A stretch of 25,179 bases of DNA, from the IMG/VR virus record IMGVR_UViG_3300030380_001410, positions 19,224 through 44,402 of that record; one strand, 5' to 3'. A program made the translations under genes and the position numbers. A model generated the notes under the pieces. That model did not search any database. It was not told where the DNA came from and saw only the letters and a list, made by a program, of their open reading frames with translations. The stretch comes from a virus. This document shows positions 11,038 through 24,092 of the stretch, piece after piece (the stretch's first letter is position 1; the number at the start of each line of letters is the position of its first letter).

Positions 11038-12549
11038 CTAGATGCCTTTGAATAACACGAAGTTGTTAGCAGCTTGTACACATAAACATCTTTCAGAAAG
11101 GAAGTTTACTTCCATTGCATCAAGATCAGATGTGAACGCTCCACCAACAGAACCTGTTAACCAAGACTTCATTCGTCTGTCGTCAGCTTGCGATGCTCTA
11201 TATCTCACGTGTAGGAATGGTCGTCTAATGTTTGTACCAAGAATTTGGTCATAAACAGTAGAAGTTCCAGCTGGTACTAATACACCATCAATTGAACTTA
11301 CACCGTATCCAACAACTGGAGCAGTCTCAATCGCGCCTCTTGTTGAAGCGTCGTTTAAGTATTTCCAGTCTGTTTTATAGAAATCATAAGAACCTCTACG
11401 GAATCCAGAGAATCCTAAGTTAAGTGCCATTTGCTCAGAGTTTTCAAATAAACCATAAGCAGTACCACCTTCAGCTCCAGAAGAAATTGCAGCAAGCATG
11501 TCATCAAAAGATAATGCAGTTTCTCTGTTTAAGAAAAGCATGTTCTCTTCAATAGCACCTTGAGTATCTAAGTTTCTAAGAATAGAATCAAAAGAATCTA
11601 ATTGAGTTATACCTCCAGCACCTGGAGCAGCGTTAAACCCAATGTTAATATTACCTCTATCTTCGATAGCAGCAAATAAACCTTGAGTTCCTTTGAATCC
11701 AGCAGCAGCAGCAGAACCAGCAGGGGCACCAGCAGCATCAGCTAATTCACCTTCAACAACTGACATTTCTAGGTAATCTTCAAAACGTAGTCTTGTTTCA
11801 GACTCAGCTTTTAAGTACCATAAATATCCAGATGTTCCATCTTCAGTCGCAACTTCAACCCAACCAATCTGAGCAGTGTCAGAACCAGATACAACATATT
11901 TGTTTCTGATAATAATTGGTGAATTAGAGAATTGAGTGAAAGAAGGAGTAATAGTTTGATAACCATCTACAGCTCCAGCTGTTTGTGTATTATTAACGAT
12001 AGAACTTCCTTTTCCATACTCAGAACCATATACAAATATTTTAACATTTGTTTGTGCTAAGTTAGAAAGATCAGCCGCGCCATATACAGCTACAGTTAAA
12101 TCACCAGTTGTTACGTTACTAGCAGTAACAATACCTTTTGCTTCTTGACCAGTCTCGTCCATCATAACGATAGTTTGATTTGGAGAAACAACATTAGCTA
12201 CATAATCTTTAGGATCAGCAGGTGCTAAATCTACAGGGATTGTTATTGTGTTTACTTGGTCGTTAGTACAACCTTCATAACCGATGTGTAATCTATTTTG
12301 CTCTGACCAGATAACTTGGTCTGATGTCATTGGCATTTCAGCTCCTACCATTCTTAAGAAACCAGATAAAGTTCTGTTTCCATATCTTTCTACTTCTTGT
12401 TCGTAGATTTCTGGTAGATATTGCTGAGCAAACGTATCAGAATCACCTGGATTTGCGCCTCCATTGAAAGACAAGTAGTTAGAATCTAAAACTTGTTGTT
12501 TCTGAGACGGCTTAATCGACCCGAATAACGGGCTTACATTTTGACTCAT
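11038..12549 (-). CDS. Major capsid protein
   Basis: 503 aa. Position after portal and scaffold, size, and composition (Ala/Gly/Ser/Thr-rich, few Cys) fit a HK97-fold major capsid protein of the marine/crAss-like podovirus type. Recognisable blocks are FLRMVGAEMPMTSDQVIWSE near residues 64-83, an inserted beta-rich region at about 100-225, an Ala/Gly-rich turn near 270-285 (GELADAAGAPAGSAAAAG), and a C-terminal part with IRRPFLHVRYRASQ and SERCLCVQAANNFV. Several hundred copies would form the icosahedral shell. Codon use is visibly richer in G/C than the flanking genes, as expected for the most highly expressed phage gene. Start ATG at 12549 follows the scaffold stop by 4 bases and is preceded by an A-rich leader without Shine-Dalgarno. 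A strong hairpin follows. Confidence 0.85.
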   Translation of the reverse strand: MSQNVSPLFGSIKPSQKQQVLDSNYLSFNGGANPGDSDTFAQQYLPEIYEQEVERYGNRTLSGFLRMVGAEMPMTSDQVIWSEQNRLHIGYEGCTNDQVNTITIPVDLAPADPKDYVANVVSPNQTIVMMDETGQEAKGIVTASNVTTGDLTVAVYGAADLSNLAQTNVKIFVYGSEYGKGSSIVNNTQTAGAVDGYQTITPSFTQFSNSPIIIRNKYVVSGSDTAQIGWVEVATEDGTSGYLWYLKAESETRLRFEDYLEMSVVEGELADAAGAPAGSAAAAGFKGTQGLFAAIEDRGNINIGFNAAPGAGGITQLDSFDSILRNLDTQGAIEENMLFLNRETALSFDDMLAAISSGAEGGTAYGLFENSEQMALNLGFSGFRRGSYDFYKTDWKYLNDASTRGAIETAPVVGYGVSSIDGVLVPAGTSTVYDQILGTNIRRPFLHVRYRASQADDRRMKSWLTGSVGGAFTSDLDAMEVNFLSERCLCVQAANNFVLFKGI

Positions 12550-13781: not shown

Positions 13782-16202
13782 TTACTTTGGTTCAAATTGC
13801 TCTAATCCAAAACCATCTAAGTTATCAAAACCAGCTGATTCAAAATTAGTAGGCAGCGTATCATTTTTTCTTTGATCAATCAATTGTGATTGTTGAGTGC
13901 CTTGCATTTTTAATCTTTTATCTTTTCTATCTTCTATTTCTTTTTCTTTATTTAACTCCTTAGCCATGTTAGCTTGAGCTAGTTGTATATTGTAATTAAA
14001 CTCTTCAGCCATTAATAGTTTCTTAATCTCAGCTTCTGTCTGCATTCTTTGTATTTCAAACTGAGACTTAGCTTGTTCTATTTGAACTTTAGACTCTGTT
14101 AGAGCTTGTTGTTTTTGCATTTCAGCTAAAGCAGCTTGTTCAGCTGTTTGAGAATTAGCTTGAGCTTGTGCTTGTATATTTGCTAACTGAGCAGCTTCAT
14201 CTCTTTGACGTTTCTTTTCTTGACTAAGTTTTAATTTTTGATTAGCAAGTTTAAGATTTTTTATTTGTCTTAGGTCTATAGCATCAGCCAGTCCTATACT
14301 CTGTTGTTGTAAAGCCATTTGTATATTTTGCTCTAGCATTTGCTTTTCTTCTTCGTCAGGCTCTAATTCTAAATATATACCAAACTCCATTAATTGTTTT
14401 TCCATTAACTCACCTAAAGTTGCAGAATTAAACAAAGATATAGAATCTACTAAGGCTTGTCTTGTTAAAGGAAAAGCTAAAGCATCAGCAGCTCTTAAAG
14501 CTATGTTCTCACAATTTCTCAACGTTAAATATAATTGAGCTTGCATTAAATGTCTAGTAGCTGTATTGCTATTTGCCGCGGCTAATTTTTGTAAACCTAC
14601 TAAAGATCCTACTGCTGGAGTGCTTGCGTCTTTAGCTTCATTAAGCCCCGTCACGTCTCTTATCATTTGTAAATAATACTGATAAGTTTGTATTAAGCTA
14701 GCTATTTTAGCATTACCACTACTTGTTTGTAGTTCTTGTATAGGAACTTTACCTCTATTAGGATCACCTTCTTGAGTTAAAGATCTACCTACTATACTAC
14801 CAGTTTGAAAATACATATTCAAAGCTTCTTGAGCATTGTAGTTTGTTCCATTACCTAAATCAACTTCTGCTAAACCATCAACATCAACAAACACCCCGTC
14901 CGGAACCATTCGCGATAACACTTGTTGTAACTTTAAATGTGTTAATTGAATCATATCAGCAAAGCCAGTTATTCTACTAACAGTAGACTCTATTCTCCCT
15001 TTATACATTTTAGGAGCACATATACTGTAGTTCATATTAACTTTAGCTATATTGCTAAATGGTCTAGTCATGTTTTTAGCTAACTGCCATCTTAACATTT
15101 TGTCAAAACCTAATATTTTAGCACCTGAATAAAGAACTTCTATCGATCTTGATGCTCTTTCAAAGTTATCATTTTTAGGTGGGTTAAATGTATCTGGCTT
15201 TTCTAAAGCTTTTTCTAAACCGTTCTCTGATCTTTTTATTTTAAATACTTGTTCTTGATATGTTTTATATTCAAAATAAAGAACGTTAACAGTATTATAA
15301 TTATCTTGCTGACCTCTATAATTGTTTCTATAGTTACTATTACCTGGGTACTGTTGTATTTCTTTTAAATCCTCTGGAGTTAAATATGAAAACTCTTTTT
15401 TAAGCTCTTCTAAACTTATTTGTTTAACTTCACCTACGTAGTATATATCTTCAAAATTTGGATCTTCGGTATAAGAATAAACTAAATTAGCAGGATCAAC
15501 ATACTCTACGGTTATACCATTTGCTAAGTTAAAGCTAGTTTTAGTAGCTCCTATACCTAAAACAACTAAGTCGTTTATTATTCTTCTTTTTGTTAATTGA
15601 TATTTATTTCTTTGTAATACGTTTTCAATTAACTCTTCTTCAGCTATCTCTATAGATTGCTTATAAGATAATTGCATGTGAAGATCTATTTCCTCTTGAG
15701 ACTCAGGTAATGCACTTGGATCAGTAGTAGTAAAAAAATCTAAACCTACTTTTTCTTTTGTTTCATTTAAAAGATCTTTACCATACATGTCTCTCATTAA
15801 TCCAGCAGCATAGTTTGTTCTTTGCTTTACAGATTCTGGATCTTGAGAAAAAGCTTTTATATCGTATACTTTTGCAGACATACCGTTAACAAGTATATCT
15901 ACAAACTTTGCAACTATAGGAACTGGTTTCCAATCTAAATTAAGATATGACAAATCACCATTAATAGATAATTCATCTTTGTATTTTTGTACAGGTTGTT
16001 CTCCTCTAGCGTATAATCTTAAAGTATTAAAAAACTGCCAGTTGTTACCAAACCTACCGCCTGCTCCGATACCTCTATCACCAGCCCACCATTCGCCTTC
16101 TATAGCTCTAGCAACTGCTAACCCATATTCCATTGTACTCTTCTCTTCGTCTGGTACCACCTGACTTGGGAAAGAACTATTAGGATTTGTGTATATATTC
16201 AT
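13782..16202 (-). CDS. Portal protein
   Basis: 806 aa. It forms the dodecameric ring through which DNA enters and leaves the head. The N-terminal half is typical of large podovirus portals: LARGEQPVQKYKDELSINGD is followed by LNLDWKPVPIVAKFVDILV (about 90-108), where the NLDW-x-P--IV-KFVD pattern is the clearest marker. The middle (about 250-560) carries the wing and stem, with an Arg/Asn-rich repeat NSNYRNNYRGQQDN. The C-terminus, from about 620 to 775, is a long Gln/Ala/Glu/Lys-rich helix (for example AAQLANIQAQAQANSQTAEQ), matching the helical barrel seen in P22-like and crAss-like portals. The start follows the large-terminase stop with no gap (TAGATG), indicating translational coupling. 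The order terL-portal-scaffold-capsid supports the call. Confidence 0.85.
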   Translation of the reverse strand: MNIYTNPNSSFPSQVVPDEEKSTMEYGLAVARAIEGEWWAGDRGIGAGGRFGNNWQFFNTLRLYARGEQPVQKYKDELSINGDLSYLNLDWKPVPIVAKFVDILVNGMSAKVYDIKAFSQDPESVKQRTNYAAGLMRDMYGKDLLNETKEKVGLDFFTTTDPSALPESQEEIDLHMQLSYKQSIEIAEEELIENVLQRNKYQLTKRRIINDLVVLGIGATKTSFNLANGITVEYVDPANLVYSYTEDPNFEDIYYVGEVKQISLEELKKEFSYLTPEDLKEIQQYPGNSNYRNNYRGQQDNYNTVNVLYFEYKTYQEQVFKIKRSENGLEKALEKPDTFNPPKNDNFERASRSIEVLYSGAKILGFDKMLRWQLAKNMTRPFSNIAKVNMNYSICAPKMYKGRIESTVSRITGFADMIQLTHLKLQQVLSRMVPDGVFVDVDGLAEVDLGNGTNYNAQEALNMYFQTGSIVGRSLTQEGDPNRGKVPIQELQTSSGNAKIASLIQTYQYYLQMIRDVTGLNEAKDASTPAVGSLVGLQKLAAANSNTATRHLMQAQLYLTLRNCENIALRAADALAFPLTRQALVDSISLFNSATLGELMEKQLMEFGIYLELEPDEEEKQMLEQNIQMALQQQSIGLADAIDLRQIKNLKLANQKLKLSQEKKRQRDEAAQLANIQAQAQANSQTAEQAALAEMQKQQALTESKVQIEQAKSQFEIQRMQTEAEIKKLLMAEEFNYNIQLAQANMAKELNKEKEIEDRKDKRLKMQGTQQSQLIDQRKNDTLPTNFESAGFDNLDGFGLEQFEPK

Positions 16203-18407
16203 CTACTTAATTATTTTTGAAATACTTCCTTTATTGTCATATCTTTTAAAACCTAAAGGAACTGATTTTACTATTGTTTCTGCTACTGGTCTGTATCTAT
16301 GTTTGTTGCACGCCATTAAAGCTAAACCAGAGCTAATAGACGCATCGTGTTTTGTTCTGTTGTTTATATTAAACCTAGCCCAATCATTTAGCGTTTTTTG
16401 AAAATACATATTACCATAGCCTGTTTGTAATAAACCAACGTGAGACTCTATGTAAGTTTCTATAGCCGCAGCATGAGCTTGCTTCATATCTTCACTTGAG
16501 TTTGGTACTCCACCTATCTCTCTTTCTGTAACAGACAATTTTAATTTGTCTGGTCTGTTCATGGAGTAACCTCTATAACCTCTTCTTTTAAAATGATATA
16601 ATAATCTAGGTTTGTTATTCTCTGCTAGTATTGGCATGCCATAAAATACACAAGCCATTAATACATCTTCAAAAAATATCTCTGCCGTTTGAGGTCTAGA
16701 TATATATTCTAAAAAGAAATGATTTGATGGAGCATCTTCCATACTGAATTTAGTTAAACCATGTAATGCTCCGTTAGAACCTCTTCTGTCTACGGTTCCT
16801 GATATATCGTATGAGTCACACCCAAAAGCACCTATATGCTCGTTTCCAGGGTATTTAGCTCCTCTTTTTAATACTACATTATTTTGTAGATAAACTGGTG
16901 GAACCCAGCTAACTAAAAACCTACCATCATTGTTAGGATAAAAAATTACTTTAGTATCTTGTTGACCGTTTTCCCAACGAAAAGAACCTTTTGTTAATAT
17001 GTTAGTGTTCCTAATATCTTCGTTGTAATCTATTTGTTGATATATTTTTGTTAAATTAAACAATGAAGATTTTGCTTCATCTCTAAAAGCGTGTTGCTCT
17101 GTTCTTGGAAACTGTCTATAAAATTCGTTTAACGCCTCTTGATCTCCTTTTAAACCATCAACTTCATTTTGCCAATAGTTTATTACTCCTATTTTTATTA
17201 TATTTCCGTGAGGACCAGTGGTGTTTTCTTCTGGGTCTTCGAATACAGGTAAGCCATAAGAATCAATGTATCCTTCGTAGTTCCATTCCATAGGTATGAA
17301 CAAACTATATAGTCCCGAGCGAGTCTGTCCATTGGCGTTTCTTTTTGTAACGTCTGAGTCATAGTAAAGCTTTTTAAAATTTTCTCCACCTTTGTCTAGC
17401 GCGTTGCTAGTAGATCCCATCATACATTTACCTACTACTCTACTACCTAATCTTAGTGTGGTTTTCGTGACCCTCCAGTTGTTGAGGATGTTGTTCGGAC
17501 GCTCCCATTTACCGCTCTCATCGTGGACGAGGAGTTTGAGTTTCTCACCATCGTAGGAGTTATCACCTGTGTTCTTCCAGTCGATTGTGGTGTCCAATCC
17601 CTGTAACTGCGGTAAGGTTTCATTTGCGGCAAGTTTACGTCTGGTGAACTTACTGGCAGGGACGCGGTAGGCAAGCTCGGTCTTTGGACGGTCCATTCCG
17701 TCCTGGATGGGTTTGAAAAAGAAAGGGTAGTTAACCGATATGGGTACCACCTTGTCTGTAAACATCGTCTTTGCATCAGGCCCAGACTTGGATAATATAC
17801 CATACCTACTGTCGCTTGATATGGTTGCCAAGTTAACCACCTCTCCTGAGGCCATAAACGAAAACCCAGAACGTCTGTTCTTAAGGTAACACATCCCATA
17901 GGATCGTGTATCTGCTTTGCAAGCTTCCCAAAAGATATAGAATAATCTATTTGCTTCCCTAAAGTCTGGTTTCCCAACATCAATCTTGGACCACTGCAGG
18001 TACATATAGTGAGTACCAGTAATGTAAGTAGCCACGTCTTTATTATAGAACCAAAACCCTTCTTCTCTTCGAGTAAATTCTTTATCGATGTAATCATACC
18101 ATTGCTCTTTGAATTCAACAGGGTAGTTTTCCCAGTCAAATCTAGTCTTAATATTTTTTAACTCTACAGGTATGTTAGTTCTTTCCCATTTATTAGAGCT
18201 AAACCTTTTTGTATCTTTTGGTTTAGGTAAAGCTATTTTAAGGTTTTGTATTTCATATATATCACCTATAGTACCGTCTTTACTTATAACAATGATGTCA
18301 TGATCTTCGTTATAACCGTATTCCCACTTTTTAGCTTTGTTAAACTTTTTTAAAATATGAGGTTTTACGTGATCTTCTAGTATATTATATAAATCTTGCT
18401 TGTACAT
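16203..18407 (-). CDS. terL: Terminase large subunit (packaging ATPase/nuclease)
   Basis: 734 aa. The ATPase domain has a degenerate Walker A (LKNRRSGFS, residues 175-183), a Walker B with catalytic acid (LLVHDE, 292-297), and a coupling motif (GSTSN, 331-335). The RNase H-like nuclease domain shows the first acidic residue in AFGCDSYD (Asp531), a middle region around EYISRPQTAEIFFED (567-581) with a possible acidic ligand Glu596, and the last in KHDASISSGLALMA (Asp689). It cuts concatemeric DNA and pumps it into the prohead through the portal. The N-terminal 120 residues are longer than in many TerL and hold no known motif. Its ATG shares one base with the upstream stop (TAATG). About 17460-18140 has unusually high GC and different codon use within an intact frame. 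Confidence 0.9.
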   Translation of the reverse strand: MYKQDLYNILEDHVKPHILKKFNKAKKWEYGYNEDHDIIVISKDGTIGDIYEIQNLKIALPKPKDTKRFSSNKWERTNIPVELKNIKTRFDWENYPVEFKEQWYDYIDKEFTRREEGFWFYNKDVATYITGTHYMYLQWSKIDVGKPDFREANRLFYIFWEACKADTRSYGMCYLKNRRSGFSFMASGEVVNLATISSDSRYGILSKSGPDAKTMFTDKVVPISVNYPFFFKPIQDGMDRPKTELAYRVPASKFTRRKLAANETLPQLQGLDTTIDWKNTGDNSYDGEKLKLLVHDESGKWERPNNILNNWRVTKTTLRLGSRVVGKCMMGSTSNALDKGGENFKKLYYDSDVTKRNANGQTRSGLYSLFIPMEWNYEGYIDSYGLPVFEDPEENTTGPHGNIIKIGVINYWQNEVDGLKGDQEALNEFYRQFPRTEQHAFRDEAKSSLFNLTKIYQQIDYNEDIRNTNILTKGSFRWENGQQDTKVIFYPNNDGRFLVSWVPPVYLQNNVVLKRGAKYPGNEHIGAFGCDSYDISGTVDRRGSNGALHGLTKFSMEDAPSNHFFLEYISRPQTAEIFFEDVLMACVFYGMPILAENNKPRLLYHFKRRGYRGYSMNRPDKLKLSVTEREIGGVPNSSEDMKQAHAAAIETYIESHVGLLQTGYGNMYFQKTLNDWARFNINNRTKHDASISSGLALMACNKHRYRPVAETIVKSVPLGFKRYDNKGSISKIIK
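17460..18140 (-). other. GC-rich, codon-shifted patch inside terL
   Basis: Hand count gives about 52% GC for 17461-17700 and about 49% for 17461-17880. Sampled lines elsewhere in the same gene give about 28-35%. The right-hand codon boundary is abrupt: residues 306-316 use AAC, ATC, CTC, GTC and ACC, while residues 317-326 use ACA, CTA, AGA, TTA, GTA and GGT. The upstream edge fades between about 17880 and 18140. The patch covers Walker A to just before the coupling motif. The frame stays open throughout. Confidence 0.75.
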
Positions 18408-18679: not shown

Positions 18680-19229
18680 ATTTAATTAAAATGTCGTCTA
18701 CGTGTAAACAATAAAGACGCGTGTTATCTATTATAAACTCAAACTCTCTATTACTTGCTACGCCCACAAGGTCTCCCTCGCTTATTCCCTGCACTTCTAA
18801 GAGCTTATTACCATATTTAAGTATACCAATATTCTTTTGTTCTTTTTCTAGCGTTAGAGAGCTTTTGTCTTTTATGGGTATTATAAAACATCTATCACCA
18901 AAAGAGTTCCATTTATTTTCTTTTTTATATAAATATATTTGATCTGGTTGACAAAAGAAAAGATCGTTTGTAAATTTTTTACTACTATCAACAGCTTCGT
19001 TTTTCATGTTGTAGTATCTTCTAAAAACGTTATGATGTATTATTATTTCGTCACCTTTATTTATAGCTGTATCAAAAGCTTTGGGAACACTTATAACAAT
19101 AGCTCTTCTACTTATAAACTTAAATGACTCAATACTTGTGTTTAATATTAAATCTTTGTTGTTTATTTTTATAGAGTTATCATACCTGTCGTCAATAGGT
19201 TTAACTAAAAAATTCCAAACACTTTGCAT
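18624..19229 (-). CDS. GroES-like co-chaperonin candidate
   Basis: 201 aa, about twice the length of bacterial GroES (about 97 aa). Residues 38-75 contain SRRAIVISVPKAFDTAINKG followed by DEIIIHHNVF, which parallels the GroES pattern of a V-x-V-G strand, a mobile-loop region and K-x-GD-V-(I/V). The C-terminal part has ISEGDLVGVASNREFEFIID then NTRLYCLHVDDILIKYE, which matches the closing GroES block (K-D-G-x-Y--(V/L)-x--DIL). The middle third is an insertion with KKENKWNSFGDRCFIIPI. The tail is EYKGNEEEYNPSWAKSS. If correct, it would cap host GroEL and help fold the phage capsid protein, as T4 gp31 does. Its place next to the terminase genes fits an assembly role. The start overlaps the previous stop (TAATG). 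Another barrel fold is possible. Confidence 0.6.
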   Translation of the reverse strand: MQSVWNFLVKPIDDRYDNSIKINNKDLILNTSIESFKFISRRAIVISVPKAFDTAINKGDEIIIHHNVFRRYYNMKNEAVDSSKKFTNDLFFCQPDQIYLYKKENKWNSFGDRCFIIPIKDKSSLTLEKEQKNIGILKYGNKLLEVQGISEGDLVGVASNREFEFIIDNTRLYCLHVDDILIKYEYKGNEEEYNPSWAKSS

Positions 19230-19453
19230 TAATACTGTAGATCATACTCAACGGATATAGCCATGTTAGAATTAAATTTTTTCCATGGCAAAACCTCGTT
19301 GTTTTTCTTTATATAAATGTTATAAGAGTTATCATCATCAAGTAAGATGTCAGATATAGTGTGACCACCATAAACCTCTTGACCTACAGAATAATGCATT
19401 GCATCATTTTTGTAATCAGAGCCTATGCTGATTTTTCTAATTTTACTTTCCAT
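19229..19453 (-). CDS. Small conserved-looking phage protein, unknown function
   Basis: 74 aa, soluble, mixed charge. It contains KISIGSDYKNDAMHYSVGQE (residues 8-27) and ends PWKKFNSNMAISVEYDLQY. It looks like a small beta-rich domain. I believe similar short proteins occur beside terminase genes in marine phage genomes, but no function is known to me. Its stop shares one base with the start of the GroES-like gene and its start overlaps the preceding coiled-coil gene by 11 bases, so the three are probably translated as a coupled unit. Confidence 0.65.
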   Translation of the reverse strand: MESKIRKISIGSDYKNDAMHYSVGQEVYGGHTISDILLDDDNSYNIYIKKNNEVLPWKKFNSNMAISVEYDLQY

Positions 19454-19708: not shown

Positions 19709-20167
19709 TTATTTATTATTACCTATACTTTTAAACTTTTCCGCTCCACGTGAACCAAAGTAGGCTACGTAAACAGTTATAAGTAATGATTTTAGCAAAT
19801 CAATCCAACCACTATCAATACCAAACTCTATATTAAAGCTGTCTAATAGTATAAAAATTATTAATGATATTGTTAAAAATATCAAAGTCATAGGCCTAGT
19901 ATTTTTACTAAGCCATGAATCTGATTTCATATCGCTGTTCCAGCGTTTACTTATCTCTTGAGCTTCAACTATATCTTGCTCTAATAGTTTTAACGCTATA
20001 ACTTTATCTTGTTGAGGTAGTTCTTTGTCATCAGATATTAAATTTTTAATAACACCTAGTAAACCTTTATCTGGCATCACGTCTCCTATGGCATTTACAA
20101 GACCTGATTTACCTAACAAAAATTGACCTACTTTAGTATCCCTAAATTTTTTTTTCTTATCTGACAT
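19709..20167 (-). CDS. Holin candidate, GTA 3TM holin-like
   Basis: 152 aa. Residues 1-90 are soluble and charged, with a W-N-SDM---SWL---TRP pattern (residues 76-92). Hydrophobic segments follow at about 92-110 (PMTLIFLTISLIIFILLDS) and 121-137 (WIDLLKSLLITVYVAYF), with a closing FGSRGAEKFKS. The RP-x-T-L---LT block and the YFGSRG-EK end match what I know of the 'holin of 3TMs, for gene-transfer release' family (Pfam GTA_holin_3TM). Such proteins sit in the inner membrane and time lysis. Unlike classical lysis cassettes it is about 3.6 kb from the endolysin candidate. Its start shares one base with the upstream stop (TAATG). Two membrane segments are clear and the third is not obvious. Confidence 0.65.
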   Translation of the reverse strand: MSDKKKKFRDTKVGQFLLGKSGLVNAIGDVMPDKGLLGVIKNLISDDKELPQQDKVIALKLLEQDIVEAQEISKRWNSDMKSDSWLSKNTRPMTLIFLTISLIIFILLDSFNIEFGIDSGWIDLLKSLLITVYVAYFGSRGAEKFKSIGNNK

Positions 20168-20365: not shown

Positions 20366-21685
20366 TTATTTTTCACAAGGAGGACAAGGAGGGCAATTAC
20401 CTTTACGTACGTTTCTCGCTGTCTTCTTCTTTTTTATTTTATCTTTTGTTTTATCAACAAAATCACCTACAATTTTACCGATTTTAGGTAATTTAATTTT
20501 AGGTCCTTTAACTTTAGCATCAATATCAGCATCAACACTAACTTTAACACCTCGCTTTTTCTTTTTAGTAAGATCATCAGATGACTCGGTAGATGATGTT
20601 GATGTTGTTGAAGGTGTAACTTTAGTTTCATCATTAGTCATGTAGCTTAGTGTACCTCCAAAAGATGAACTGTTTTGACCCTCAATATCTTGTTTTGGTT
20701 TGTGAAAACCTTGACAAGTTGGATCATTTGGTCTATCTTTACATCTAGCTTTTTCTGATTTATATCTATCATATACTTTTCCACCTATCTCATGAGCTTT
20801 TGGTCCACCAGAACTTTCAGGTACTTCGAAAGGATCTTGATTTACGTTAGTTCTTGTACCACTACCATAATCAACCTTTACGTTTTCTTTAGTAGTATTT
20901 ATAGGATTTGGATTTGACATTTGCATAATCTTAGCCACACCACTTCCTTCAGAAGATGCTAAAGCCATGATGTTGCTTTTCATTTGGTAACCCATACCAC
21001 TATTCATACCTACTTTAGCTTCAACTTTTCTAAAACCTGAATTAATAAGTTCTTGGTTTCTCTTGTTAAATGCATCTTCGTTTTCAAACGTTTCTGTTTT
21101 TTCCACACCTGGTATAACTTCTGATTTTTCTGGAGTAACTGTAGTTACTTTACTAATTGTTTTTCTAGCAACTGGTTTTACTACTTCAGTTCTTGGACTT
21201 ACAGTAGCGTCAACATCGGCATCAATTCTAATTCCAGTTTTTTCAGGAGTTTTAGCATTTGAAACCGCAACTGCTTTATTACCTCTAATTCTTCTTTTCT
21301 TTTTATTACCAACCGCAATACCTTGTTCTTGACTAGTTGTTACGGTTTGACCTTGATCGTTAACCATAGTAGAAGATGTAAATCCTCCATCAGCTAACTT
21401 GTTAGCAGCGTCTCTCATAGCTTTTCTACCGCCACTATAAAGATTTTTAACATTGTTACCAGCTGCAACATTGTTAACACCGTCAATAGCTCCAGCTGTA
21501 ACTTTACCGTCTTTAATTAATACGCTACCAGTTCCTTTTAATCCTTTTCGTATTTCTTTTTTAGCTTGAAAATACTTTTTTTCTCTTTGTCTTTGCTCTT
21601 TGTTTCCAAATATTCTTCGAGCAAAGTTGCTTAATTGTTTAGGACCATCGGATGGTTCCATGTGTCCTTTCATTTTAAATGCCAT
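20366..21685 (-). CDS. Long disordered, basic protein with C-terminal CPPCPPC cluster
   Basis: 439 aa from the ATG at 21685. A longer frame to 21757 exists, but it would overlap the upstream gene, and MAFKMKGHMEP matches the N-terminal style of a neighbour. The protein is rich in Lys, Thr, Ser and Asn with few hydrophobic segments, so it is probably disordered. Two similar short units are present: IRIDADVDATVSPRTEV (about residues 145-165) and VSVDADIDAKVKGPKIK (about 385-405). The C-terminus is strongly basic and ends NCPPCPPCEK, a Cys-Pro cluster that could bind metal or form disulphides. It may be a virion-internal or DNA-associated protein. No family is recognised. Confidence 0.65.
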   Translation of the reverse strand: MAFKMKGHMEPSDGPKQLSNFARRIFGNKEQRQREKKYFQAKKEIRKGLKGTGSVLIKDGKVTAGAIDGVNNVAAGNNVKNLYSGGRKAMRDAANKLADGGFTSSTMVNDQGQTVTTSQEQGIAVGNKKKRRIRGNKAVAVSNAKTPEKTGIRIDADVDATVSPRTEVVKPVARKTISKVTTVTPEKSEVIPGVEKTETFENEDAFNKRNQELINSGFRKVEAKVGMNSGMGYQMKSNIMALASSEGSGVAKIMQMSNPNPINTTKENVKVDYGSGTRTNVNQDPFEVPESSGGPKAHEIGGKVYDRYKSEKARCKDRPNDPTCQGFHKPKQDIEGQNSSSFGGTLSYMTNDETKVTPSTTSTSSTESSDDLTKKKKRGVKVSVDADIDAKVKGPKIKLPKIGKIVGDFVDKTKDKIKKKKTARNVRKGNCPPCPPCEK

Positions 21686-21695
21686 AGTTTTAATT

Positions 21696-22046
21696 TTATA
21701 CGTTATATTTATTGTCTTTGTACTTAGTTCCAGAAAGCTGATAAGCCTGAGCCTCATAGCCTAGTTTTTTTGGATCACCAGACATAGCTCTGGCACTATG
21801 CTTAGGTATAGTTTCACCACGCCAATATATATTATTATCGTCGTAATCTAAATCCCCAGATTTCATTTGAGCAACATGAACTTTTTCATGACCTTCTACT
21901 TCTTTATGAAATTTAGGATCTAGTTTGTCATTAAGTATTATCACTTGATTTTTAAGTGATTCACCTAATACACCAGGCCCTAAGTCTCTCTCATAAACAG
22001 GTGTGTTATCTTCCTCGTATGGAGGATTAGTTAACTTAAAAGCCAT
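21696..22046 (-). CDS. Minimal HExxH zinc metallopeptidase candidate
   Basis: 116 aa. It holds a clear HExxH motif, GHEKVHVAQ at residues 52-60 (His53, Glu54, His57), preceded by a helix-forming KFHKEVE segment. A possible third ligand is Glu98 in LGYEAQAYQ, matching the HExxH...E spacing of small gluzincins. The middle has a DLDYDDNNIYWRGETIPKHS segment. The N-terminus MAFKLTNPPYEED resembles the MAFKMKG start of the next gene. There is no signal peptide or membrane segment, so it acts in the cytoplasm or is packaged in the virion. It could cut a virion precursor, a host protein or peptidoglycan crosslinks; alternatively it is an inactive metal-binding relative. The genes around it are small late genes. 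Confidence 0.6.
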   Translation of the reverse strand: MAFKLTNPPYEEDNTPVYERDLGPGVLGESLKNQVIILNDKLDPKFHKEVEGHEKVHVAQMKSGDLDYDDNNIYWRGETIPKHSARAMSGDPKKLGYEAQAYQLSGTKYKDNKYNV

Positions 22047-23472: not shown

Positions 23473-23739
23473 TTACCATTTTACTTTATTAGCCCAGTAC
23501 GCAGCACTGAACACACCTTTCTTTATATTCTTAGCGTGTCTTGCTTTAAAGCTTGCACGCCTTGCTTTTGATTTAGCATCTTTCTTTTTACCAGCCGTGC
23601 TAACACCTTGCTGTCCAAACCTAATAATTTTTTCTTTACCACCTTTACAGGCTTTTACTATATGAGACTTTGTTTTGTGCCCAGGAGTTTTCTTGGGTTT
23701 ATTACAAGCTAGATCTGATTTTTTAAATTTATTTGCCAT
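23473..23739 (-). CDS. Highly basic small protein with SFKARHAKNIKKG motif
   Basis: The start MANKFKKSD at 23739 (88 aa) is preferred over one four codons upstream, because its ATG shares one base with the stop of the peptidase gene (TAATG), as elsewhere here. The protein is dominated by Lys, with blocks KSHIVKACKGGKEKIIRFGQ, KKKDAKSKARRASFKARHAK and a closing SAAYWANKVKW. I recall this Lys/Arg-rich block with ARHAKNI and AAYWA-KVKW from phage and plankton-virus proteins of unknown function. Binding to DNA or RNA is plausible. It precedes the other Lys-rich gene. Confidence 0.7.
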   Translation of the reverse strand: MANKFKKSDLACNKPKKTPGHKTKSHIVKACKGGKEKIIRFGQQGVSTAGKKKDAKSKARRASFKARHAKNIKKGVFSAAYWANKVKW

Positions 23740-24092
23740 TAGTAAGTCCACATTACGTATTGAGATTTGTCTTCATCTATATCTATATGAATAAAACCTT
23801 TTCCTACACCTATTCTTTTTATACCATGCTTAAGACATATGTTGACTAATTCAAATCTTTCTTTGCTTGAGTCACAGTCTAAGTCAGCGGCTAAACCTTT
23901 TATATGTGATGAATTTTTAACACCACCAATTTTTTCATTATGCTCTTCAGTTCTATAACCAGAGTTAATACGTATAGGTTTTCCATACTCTTCTCTGATA
24001 CTATCTAACATACAAAGAAAATCTTTATTCATCATTTGTCCACTACCTTGTATGTCAGGCGAATCAAACTCTTCGTATGTAAAGTATTTCAT
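23739..24092 (-). CDS. Endolysin candidate, M15-family D-Ala-D-Ala peptidase
   Basis: 117 aa, single compact domain. It has the M15 signatures: a SGYRTEEHN segment (residues 44-52), the zinc motif SSHIKGLAADLD with His63 and Asp70, and the last ligand in FIHIDID (His102). The family cleaves peptide crosslinks of peptidoglycan, either as an L-Ala-D-Glu or a D-Ala-D-Ala peptidase. No signal peptide is present, so release through a holin is expected. It directly follows the one-TM 50-aa gene with a TAATG overlap, a typical holin-endolysin layout. It is shorter than many M15 endolysins (about 130-150 aa) and has no cell-wall-binding domain, as usual for phages of Gram-negative hosts. A virion-associated wall peptidase is an alternative. 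Confidence 0.85.
   Translation of the reverse strand: MKYFTYEEFDSPDIQGSGQMMNKDFLCMLDSIREEYGKPIRINSGYRTEEHNEKIGGVKNSSHIKGLAADLDCDSSKERFELVNICLKHGIKRIGVGKGFIHIDIDEDKSQYVMWTY

Follow-up and report, generated by a model that had tools for sequence, protein, structure and literature searches.

The open reading frame (ORF) at positions 21696–22046 of a phage DNA raises the question of what a small protein with the HExxH motif of a zincin might cleave, and in which phase of infection. The DNA analysed (the window) comprises 25,179 nucleotides, which are bases 19224–44402 of a 44,402-base IMG/VR virus record. A first-pass annotation made from the letters alone had read the protein as a minimal zincin that could process virion proteins, act on host targets or be delivered with the DNA. 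Our analysis upholds the part of that reading that concerns a gluzincin-type site in a small soluble protein, and goes against the part in which the protein processes the capsid or prohead. We favour, with a probability of roughly 0.4, a model in which the protein is a single-domain cytosolic gluzincin-type metallopeptidase of the late gene block with an accessory part in lysis or its operon.

Gene, motif and predicted fold

The ORF is genuine and runs on the minus strand from 22046 down to 21696, encoding 116 amino acids; the plus strand of the same interval has several stops. The site residues lie where they had first been placed, with GHEKVHVAQ spanning residues 52–60 (H53, E54 and H57) and LGYEAQAYQ containing E98, and they are accompanied by a conserved NIYWKG-type hairpin. 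The window has 38 ORFs of 50 or more amino acids that begin with ATG, and HExxH is found in this one alone; its expectation from the protein's own composition is about 0.01. The motif is not a product of chance. The highest 19-residue Kyte–Doolittle mean is 0.4, so that the earlier claim of no signal peptide is in keeping with hydropathy, the one property consulted. In its length and lack of any hydrophobic stretch, the protein resembles the soluble single domain of about 100 residues that characterizes minigluzincins.

Homologues were collected by IMG/VR scans that returned 43, 80 of 93, 80 of 93 and 6 loci, largely from the same contigs. The first three scans and one metagenome-assembled genome (MAG) gave 181 loci with 61 distinct zincin sequences, whose identity to the window protein is 35–91% in a sample of 28. 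H53, E54, H57 and Q60 are present in all 59 distinct sequences that reach them (2 of the 61 are truncated), and W75, G77, E98 and Y102 in 61 of 61. Because this set was found through the zincin itself, loci were also fetched with w14, a conserved 74-residue neighbour (19229–19453, minus strand) that is a zincin-independent bait. This set, 80 of at least 596 loci with 44 distinct zincins, retains HExxH in 42 of the 42 sequences that cover it; all 44 have the downstream Glu, and one member (L235) has lost Q60. Since the profile used to recognize its members includes the motif, complete losses would be under-counted. The zincin is present in 33 of the 38 w14-fetched loci that have more than 3 kb upstream, and among ORFs of at least 60 amino acids in the other five (L204, L210, L212, L218 and L251) HExxH appears only in L218, in a 531-residue ORF and in w14 itself.

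The invariance expected of a zincin-fold metallopeptidase is therefore seen throughout the family, and loss of Glu54, which the first-pass annotation had named as evidence against its reading, occurs in no family homologue (0 of 59 and 0 of 42). A remote GenBank relative from Vibrio phage pVa-21 deviates in having KEGVH in place of HExxH, with the first His gone. Values of dN/dS between the window gene and seven relatives are 0.036–0.123. With the motif and the invariant Glu in hand, the description of a near-complete gluzincin-type site in a 116-residue, apparently soluble phage protein holds.

AlphaFold2 models the protein with a pLDDT of 82.1, or 86.6 with a broader alignment, and the two runs agree. 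The predicted fold consists of short strands, a helix at residues 44–63 that carries HExxH, a hairpin at about 66–81 that contains the conserved NIYW stretch and a helix at 96–105 that carries E98. Structure prediction, which had been proposed as a check on zinc geometry, thereby places H53 and H57 on one predicted helix and E98 on a second. The latter arrangement is that of a gluzincin with a downstream Glu; the third-ligand His of minigluzincins has no conserved counterpart, as the only downstream His (H83) is absent from most alignment rows.

Foldseek yielded no match to the model in the PDB at E ≤ 0.001; PprI, SPRTN, selecase and IrrE head the list (E 0.16–0.6), after which unrelated chains are intermixed. 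A structural second look (VIA) aligned the model with IrrE at Z 5.8 (83 residues, 4.1 Å), PprI at Z 5.6 (88 residues, 4.3 Å), SPRTN at Z 5.3 (81 residues, 3.5 Å), abylysin at Z 4.5 (75 residues, 3.1 Å), selecase at Z 4.0 (74 residues, 3.9 Å) and jannalysin at Z 3.5, all below 6, a range that may reflect a common arrangement only. We take all 27 VIA rows listed to be zincin-like metalloproteins, including several (6d2s, 6cyy, 6cz6, 6cyj, 2ejq and 1xm5) that are not so titled, and row 4hx3_G could be either partner of its complex; in the other VIA list, 22ob and 8yjy (2 of 27 rows) are not known to be zincins. The predicted viral proteins of BFVD contribute five matches at E ≤ 0.001, of which two carry the name SprT-like. 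The VIA rows and the invariant motif make assignment of the modelled protein to the zincins likely.

Holin association in the late block

In the window, the zincin gene stands in a late block read on the minus strand. Upstream is a probable endolysin (23739–24092, minus strand) with a Peptidase_M15_3 domain (Pfam PF08291, E 2.2e-20). Downstream lie w18 (20366–21685, minus strand), a basic 439-residue protein that matches no PHROG or Pfam family, and a 3TM-type holin (19709–20167, minus strand; phrog_3427 'holin', E 1.3e-18) that also has no Pfam match. The likely start of w18 is the Met of MAFKMKG at 21685, as the start at 21757 in the ORF list would overlap the zincin. Further along the minus strand are the terminase large subunit (TerL; 16203–18407, phrog_6681, E 1.7e-168), the portal protein (13782–16202, phrog_6547, E 9.7e-135) and a capsid-like protein (11038–12549, phrog_13704 'virion structural protein', E 3.2e-88) that is probably the major capsid protein, the annotation given to its homologue in Calle_1.

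This arrangement recurs. In a set of 43 distinct representatives, each flanked on both sides by 2.5 kb or more, an endolysin is found in 41, the holin in 39 and both in 38 (the exceptions being L107, L109, L122, L145 and L199), and the neighbour genes tested are all on the strand of the zincin. The usual order is endolysin, small genes, zincin and holin, with zincin, endolysin and holin in L194–L198, and in 21 of the 43 the last 8 nt of the zincin are shared with the holin gene. The zincin stays while the type of endolysin varies (M15, or Amidase_2 in 6 of 43). Loci fetched through w14 give a similar picture, as 33 of the 38 with sufficient upstream sequence carry the holin, and a holin is detectable in 43 of 47 zincin loci and not in the other 4. 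In all 42 distinct cases with both genes, the holin is downstream, on the same strand and within 2,250 nt, and in 14 it lies within 6 nt of the zincin or overlaps it. Loci that span the interval from endolysin to w14 carry the zincin in 11 of 11 cases and a detectable holin in 8 of 11.

Several other features of the block were observed. The endolysin slot, M15 in the window (24092–23739, minus strand), is filled by Amidase_2 in close relatives (L010:3782–4207, with a Pfam E of 4.8e-15, and five other loci). The gene for a 91-residue protein with 13 His and 3 Cys (22692–22417, minus strand), a possible metal binder, precedes the zincin by two to three genes. A GroES-like protein precedes TerL (19229–18624, minus strand; phrog_13932, E 9.2e-21), and in related loci GroEL-like and short GroES-like genes, recognized by eye and from the annotation of relatives, stand upstream of the lysis block. 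Two zincins, L235:1025–2206 (393 amino acids) and L274:1762–2487 (241 amino acids), have long C-terminal extensions directly before the holin and are the longest zincin-containing ORFs among those searched.

Two unrelated neighbours, w18 (21685–20366, minus strand) and w23 (23155–22703, minus strand), share an N-terminal motif such as MAFKMKG. Among 2,419 distinct plus-strand ORFs, there are 30 instances of the pattern [FY]K[ML][KR][GN] within the first 45 residues and two beyond them. The 30 ORFs form four families, namely 13 w18-like proteins, 8 w23-like proteins, 7 zincins of the L178 type and 2 ORFs of an L244 protein; the window zincin begins with a looser MAFKL only. One might speculate that this motif is a sorting or packaging tag. 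Other HExxH motifs occur in giant proteins, as HEIFH in a 2,855-residue ORF of the same phage outside the window (L117:17538–8971, minus strand; no PHROG and no significant Pfam match) and as HEFGH in a 2,482-residue structural protein of Tenacibaculum phage Gundel (L193:8178–15626), and both are possibly zincin domains of the polyvalent type.

The window virus infects marine bacteria. Its TerL has relatives in 87 GenBank records, from phages of Flavobacterium (68), Cellulophaga (15), Tenacibaculum (2) and Maribacter (1) and the uncultured MW202828 (1). Because of the hosts of these relatives and a zincin homologue in a Saprospiraceae MAG, the host probably belongs to the Bacteroidota. The product of 2792–1299 (minus strand) matches crAss_MUZ_C, the C-terminal domain of the crassvirus muzzle protein, at 34.5 bits (cut-off 27), which indicates a kinship of the tail machinery with that of Crassvirales.

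Capsid processing, lysis and rival roles

Phage zincins have been suggested to carry out maturation cleavage or host-protein cleavage (PMC7824862) and to process polyvalent proteins (PMC5512222). The first-pass annotation had likewise thought of virion proteins, on seeing no prohead protease in the head module. That premise agrees with our search, in which Peptidase_S78, Peptidase_S49 and ClpP-like (CLP_protease) families are without a match in the 44.4 kb record, which may be incomplete. The zincin itself, having no Pfam match, falls in none of these prohead-protease families. Six relatives, MW202828, Panino, elemoE, phi19:3, Calle and Gundel, share a homologous TerL and portal with the window virus; in four, the capsid and putative scaffold are homologous as well. 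A zincin profile that found 5 of 5 positive controls, these being members or near relatives of its alignment, detected the zincin in none of the six whole records. By eye, the capsid N-termini of the four relatives lie within about a dozen residues of that of the window and show no extra prodomain. Processing of the capsid or prohead is not supported on these phyletic grounds, nor by the similar capsid N-termini, and the protein is probably not the capsid-processing protease that had been suggested.

The holin follows the same distribution, being present in 34 of 38 zincin representatives and in none of the whole records of the six relatives (controls, 2 of 2). This matching pattern, together with the absence of the zincin, ties the gene to the holin and its operon and weighs against a part in capsid maturation. 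The co-occurrence rests on six relatives, and it may be caused by common descent because two further small genes, w15 (32 of 38) and w28 (31 of 38), share the pattern, neither being found in the fetched stretches of the six. The relatives that lack the zincin carry annotated endolysins of their own, and so lysis does not in general require the zincin.

In the model that we favour, H53 and H57, probably with E98, would hold a zinc ion and E54 would activate water. Zinc binding is what the conserved site suggests, and proteolysis is likely. The protein would stay cytosolic until lysis, because it has no apparent signal peptide and no membrane segment. Encoded in the late block with an endolysin and a 3TM holin, it would presumably be expressed late and would cleave a particular protein as infection ends, most likely as an accessory of lysis or its operon, although we hold this tie to lysis or the operon only tentatively. 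A bolder version makes the protein a third enzyme of the lysis block, which is released when the holin opens the inner membrane and cuts a protein of the Bacteroidota host that belongs to the envelope or serves in anchoring. This version is unlikely; if true, lysis in this lineage would entail protein cleavage besides peptidoglycan cleavage. The question posed by the locus has in any case shifted from capsid processing towards lysis or late protein processing.

The latter process could concern lineage-specific late or virion-associated proteins, such as the basic MAFKM neighbours or the 2,855-residue protein, rather than the shared capsid. The zincin stands among small basic genes of the late block, and the two extended members lie directly before the holin, which is the place of w18 in the window. 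A conserved zincin of jumbo phages has also been proposed to act in virion maturation (PMC7824862). However, w18 occurs in only 5 and w23 in only 4 of the 38 zincin representatives, and thus they are not constant partners of the zincin. The C-terminal extensions of L235 and L274 match nothing elsewhere in the fetched loci, that of L235 being dissimilar to w18 (E 0.34), and the 2,855-residue protein has an HEIFH of its own. On balance, a processing protease of this kind is somewhat unlikely. A target in the host, whether for counter-defence or for takeover, has been proposed for SprT-like phage peptidases of patchy distribution (PMC7824862), but the zincin is stably retained in its lineage (33 of 38 w14-fetched loci) and has its place next to the lysis genes, not in an early region of variable content, which renders such a role rather unlikely.

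The structural likeness to IrrE, the best row at Z 5.8, brings to mind a protease of the IrrE, ImmA or MpaR type that cuts a phage repressor and thereby switches on late genes; the metalloprotease MpaR of the Listeria monocin offers a precedent of repressor cleavage (PMC6872733). In 6 of 42 cases (L178 and L194–L198), the start of the zincin overlaps by 1–4 nt the end of a gene for a protein of about 146 residues, a homologue of which is annotated 'repressor protein' in MW202828. This gene is nevertheless at least 1.5 kb from the zincin in the other 36 cases and is also present in five of the six relatives without the zincin. Its product looks DNA-binding by eye, yet of three that were scanned against Pfam, one matches HNH below the threshold and two match nothing. 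A dedicated repressor pair is weakened because the candidate regulator occurs without the zincin, and we consider this role very improbable. A zincin-like fold is no proof of proteolysis, and the loss of the first His in the remote relative pVa-21 would suit a protein that binds zinc or is catalytically dead and whose role lies in structure or binding. E54, which is required for catalysis but not for zinc binding, is never lost in the family, and a dead enzyme is accordingly improbable.

Comparison with known zincins

On its own, the window protein has no match in Pfam, PHROG (E ≤ 0.01) or NCBIfam and scores only E 0.011 and 0.015 against phrog_16532 and phrog_10499, whereas 28 and 26 of 29 sampled members, respectively, match these two PHROGs of unknown function at E ≤ 0.01 (best 3.9e-12 and 1.6e-12). 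Seven of the 29 match phrog_87 'metallo-protease', 16 match the Pfam 'putative metallopeptidase' DUF6782 at E ≤ 1 (best 7.3e-4; the window protein does not), and none of 18 members matches NCBIfam. When GenBank phages were searched by tblastn, the window protein gave nothing significant (E 1 or more) and other members, as separate queries, gave best E values of 0.04, 2e-4 and 1e-3. A sequence profile search of solved structures returned inositol phosphatases (E 0.012) and the zincin selecase (E 0.16) and was not usable.

Profile comparison by hhalign connects the stretch from HExxH to the Glu with an 'ImmA/IrrE family metallopeptidase' of Ochrobactrum phage OC (E 1.7e-11), ORF071 of Xanthomonas phage XacN1 (E 2.9e-10) and gp8 of Sinorhizobium phage phiM19 (E 2.9e-6), and the pVa-21 protein matches with E 4.9e-6 over 42 columns. 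These matches indicate that the zincin forms one branch within a broad family of phage proteins. In contrast to the window family, the OC, XacN1 and phiM19 proteins have dissimilar N-terminal parts and come from large myophages; in the short stretches inspected around the gene, the annotation lists neither a holin nor an endolysin.

Among cellular proteins, IrrE/PprI and Peptidase_M78 share HExxH with the window protein, provide the best VIA rows (Z 5.8 and 5.6 over 83–88 residues) and use a downstream Glu as zinc ligand. The solved IrrE/PprI chains are nonetheless 240–248 residues long, compared with 116 here, and Pfam M78 is matched, marginally, by 9 of 29 members (best E 0.024) and not by the window protein. 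The minigluzincins abylysin, jannalysin and selecase are, like the window zincin, soluble single domains (about 105–110 residues), but their third zinc ligand is a His rather than a Glu; Wss1 and Spartan are reportedly treated as minigluzincins. SprT-like proteins and SPRTN, whose third ligand is also His, are similar in structure (Z 5.3), and phage SprT-like proteins are among the BFVD matches. Pfam SprT-like is matched by 2 of 29 members (best E 0.0044) and not by the window protein.

A search of the PMC literature found no paper on this zincin family; a word search of a crassvirus structure paper (PMC10172136) turned up nothing on cleavage, protease or zinc, and one of a Crassvirales review (PMC10136315) nothing on protease, peptidase or zinc. 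Maribacter phage Molly, a marine flavophage, encodes a 199-residue zinc-dependent peptidase with a lipoprotein domain that is suggested to act on the extracellular matrix (PMC8776804). Going by that description, it and the window zincin are both short and of the zinc-peptidase type. The MPTase of polyvalent proteins (PMC5512222) resides in a large multidomain polypeptide, unlike the stand-alone ORF of the window. Phages repeatedly carry small stand-alone zincins, and in the set assembled here dozens of diverse sequences share an unvarying active site and a gene context that recurs. The window gene thus joins a known kind, the stand-alone phage zincin, with most sampled members matching existing PHROGs, and what is new here is the strictness of its conservation and its holin-linked context.
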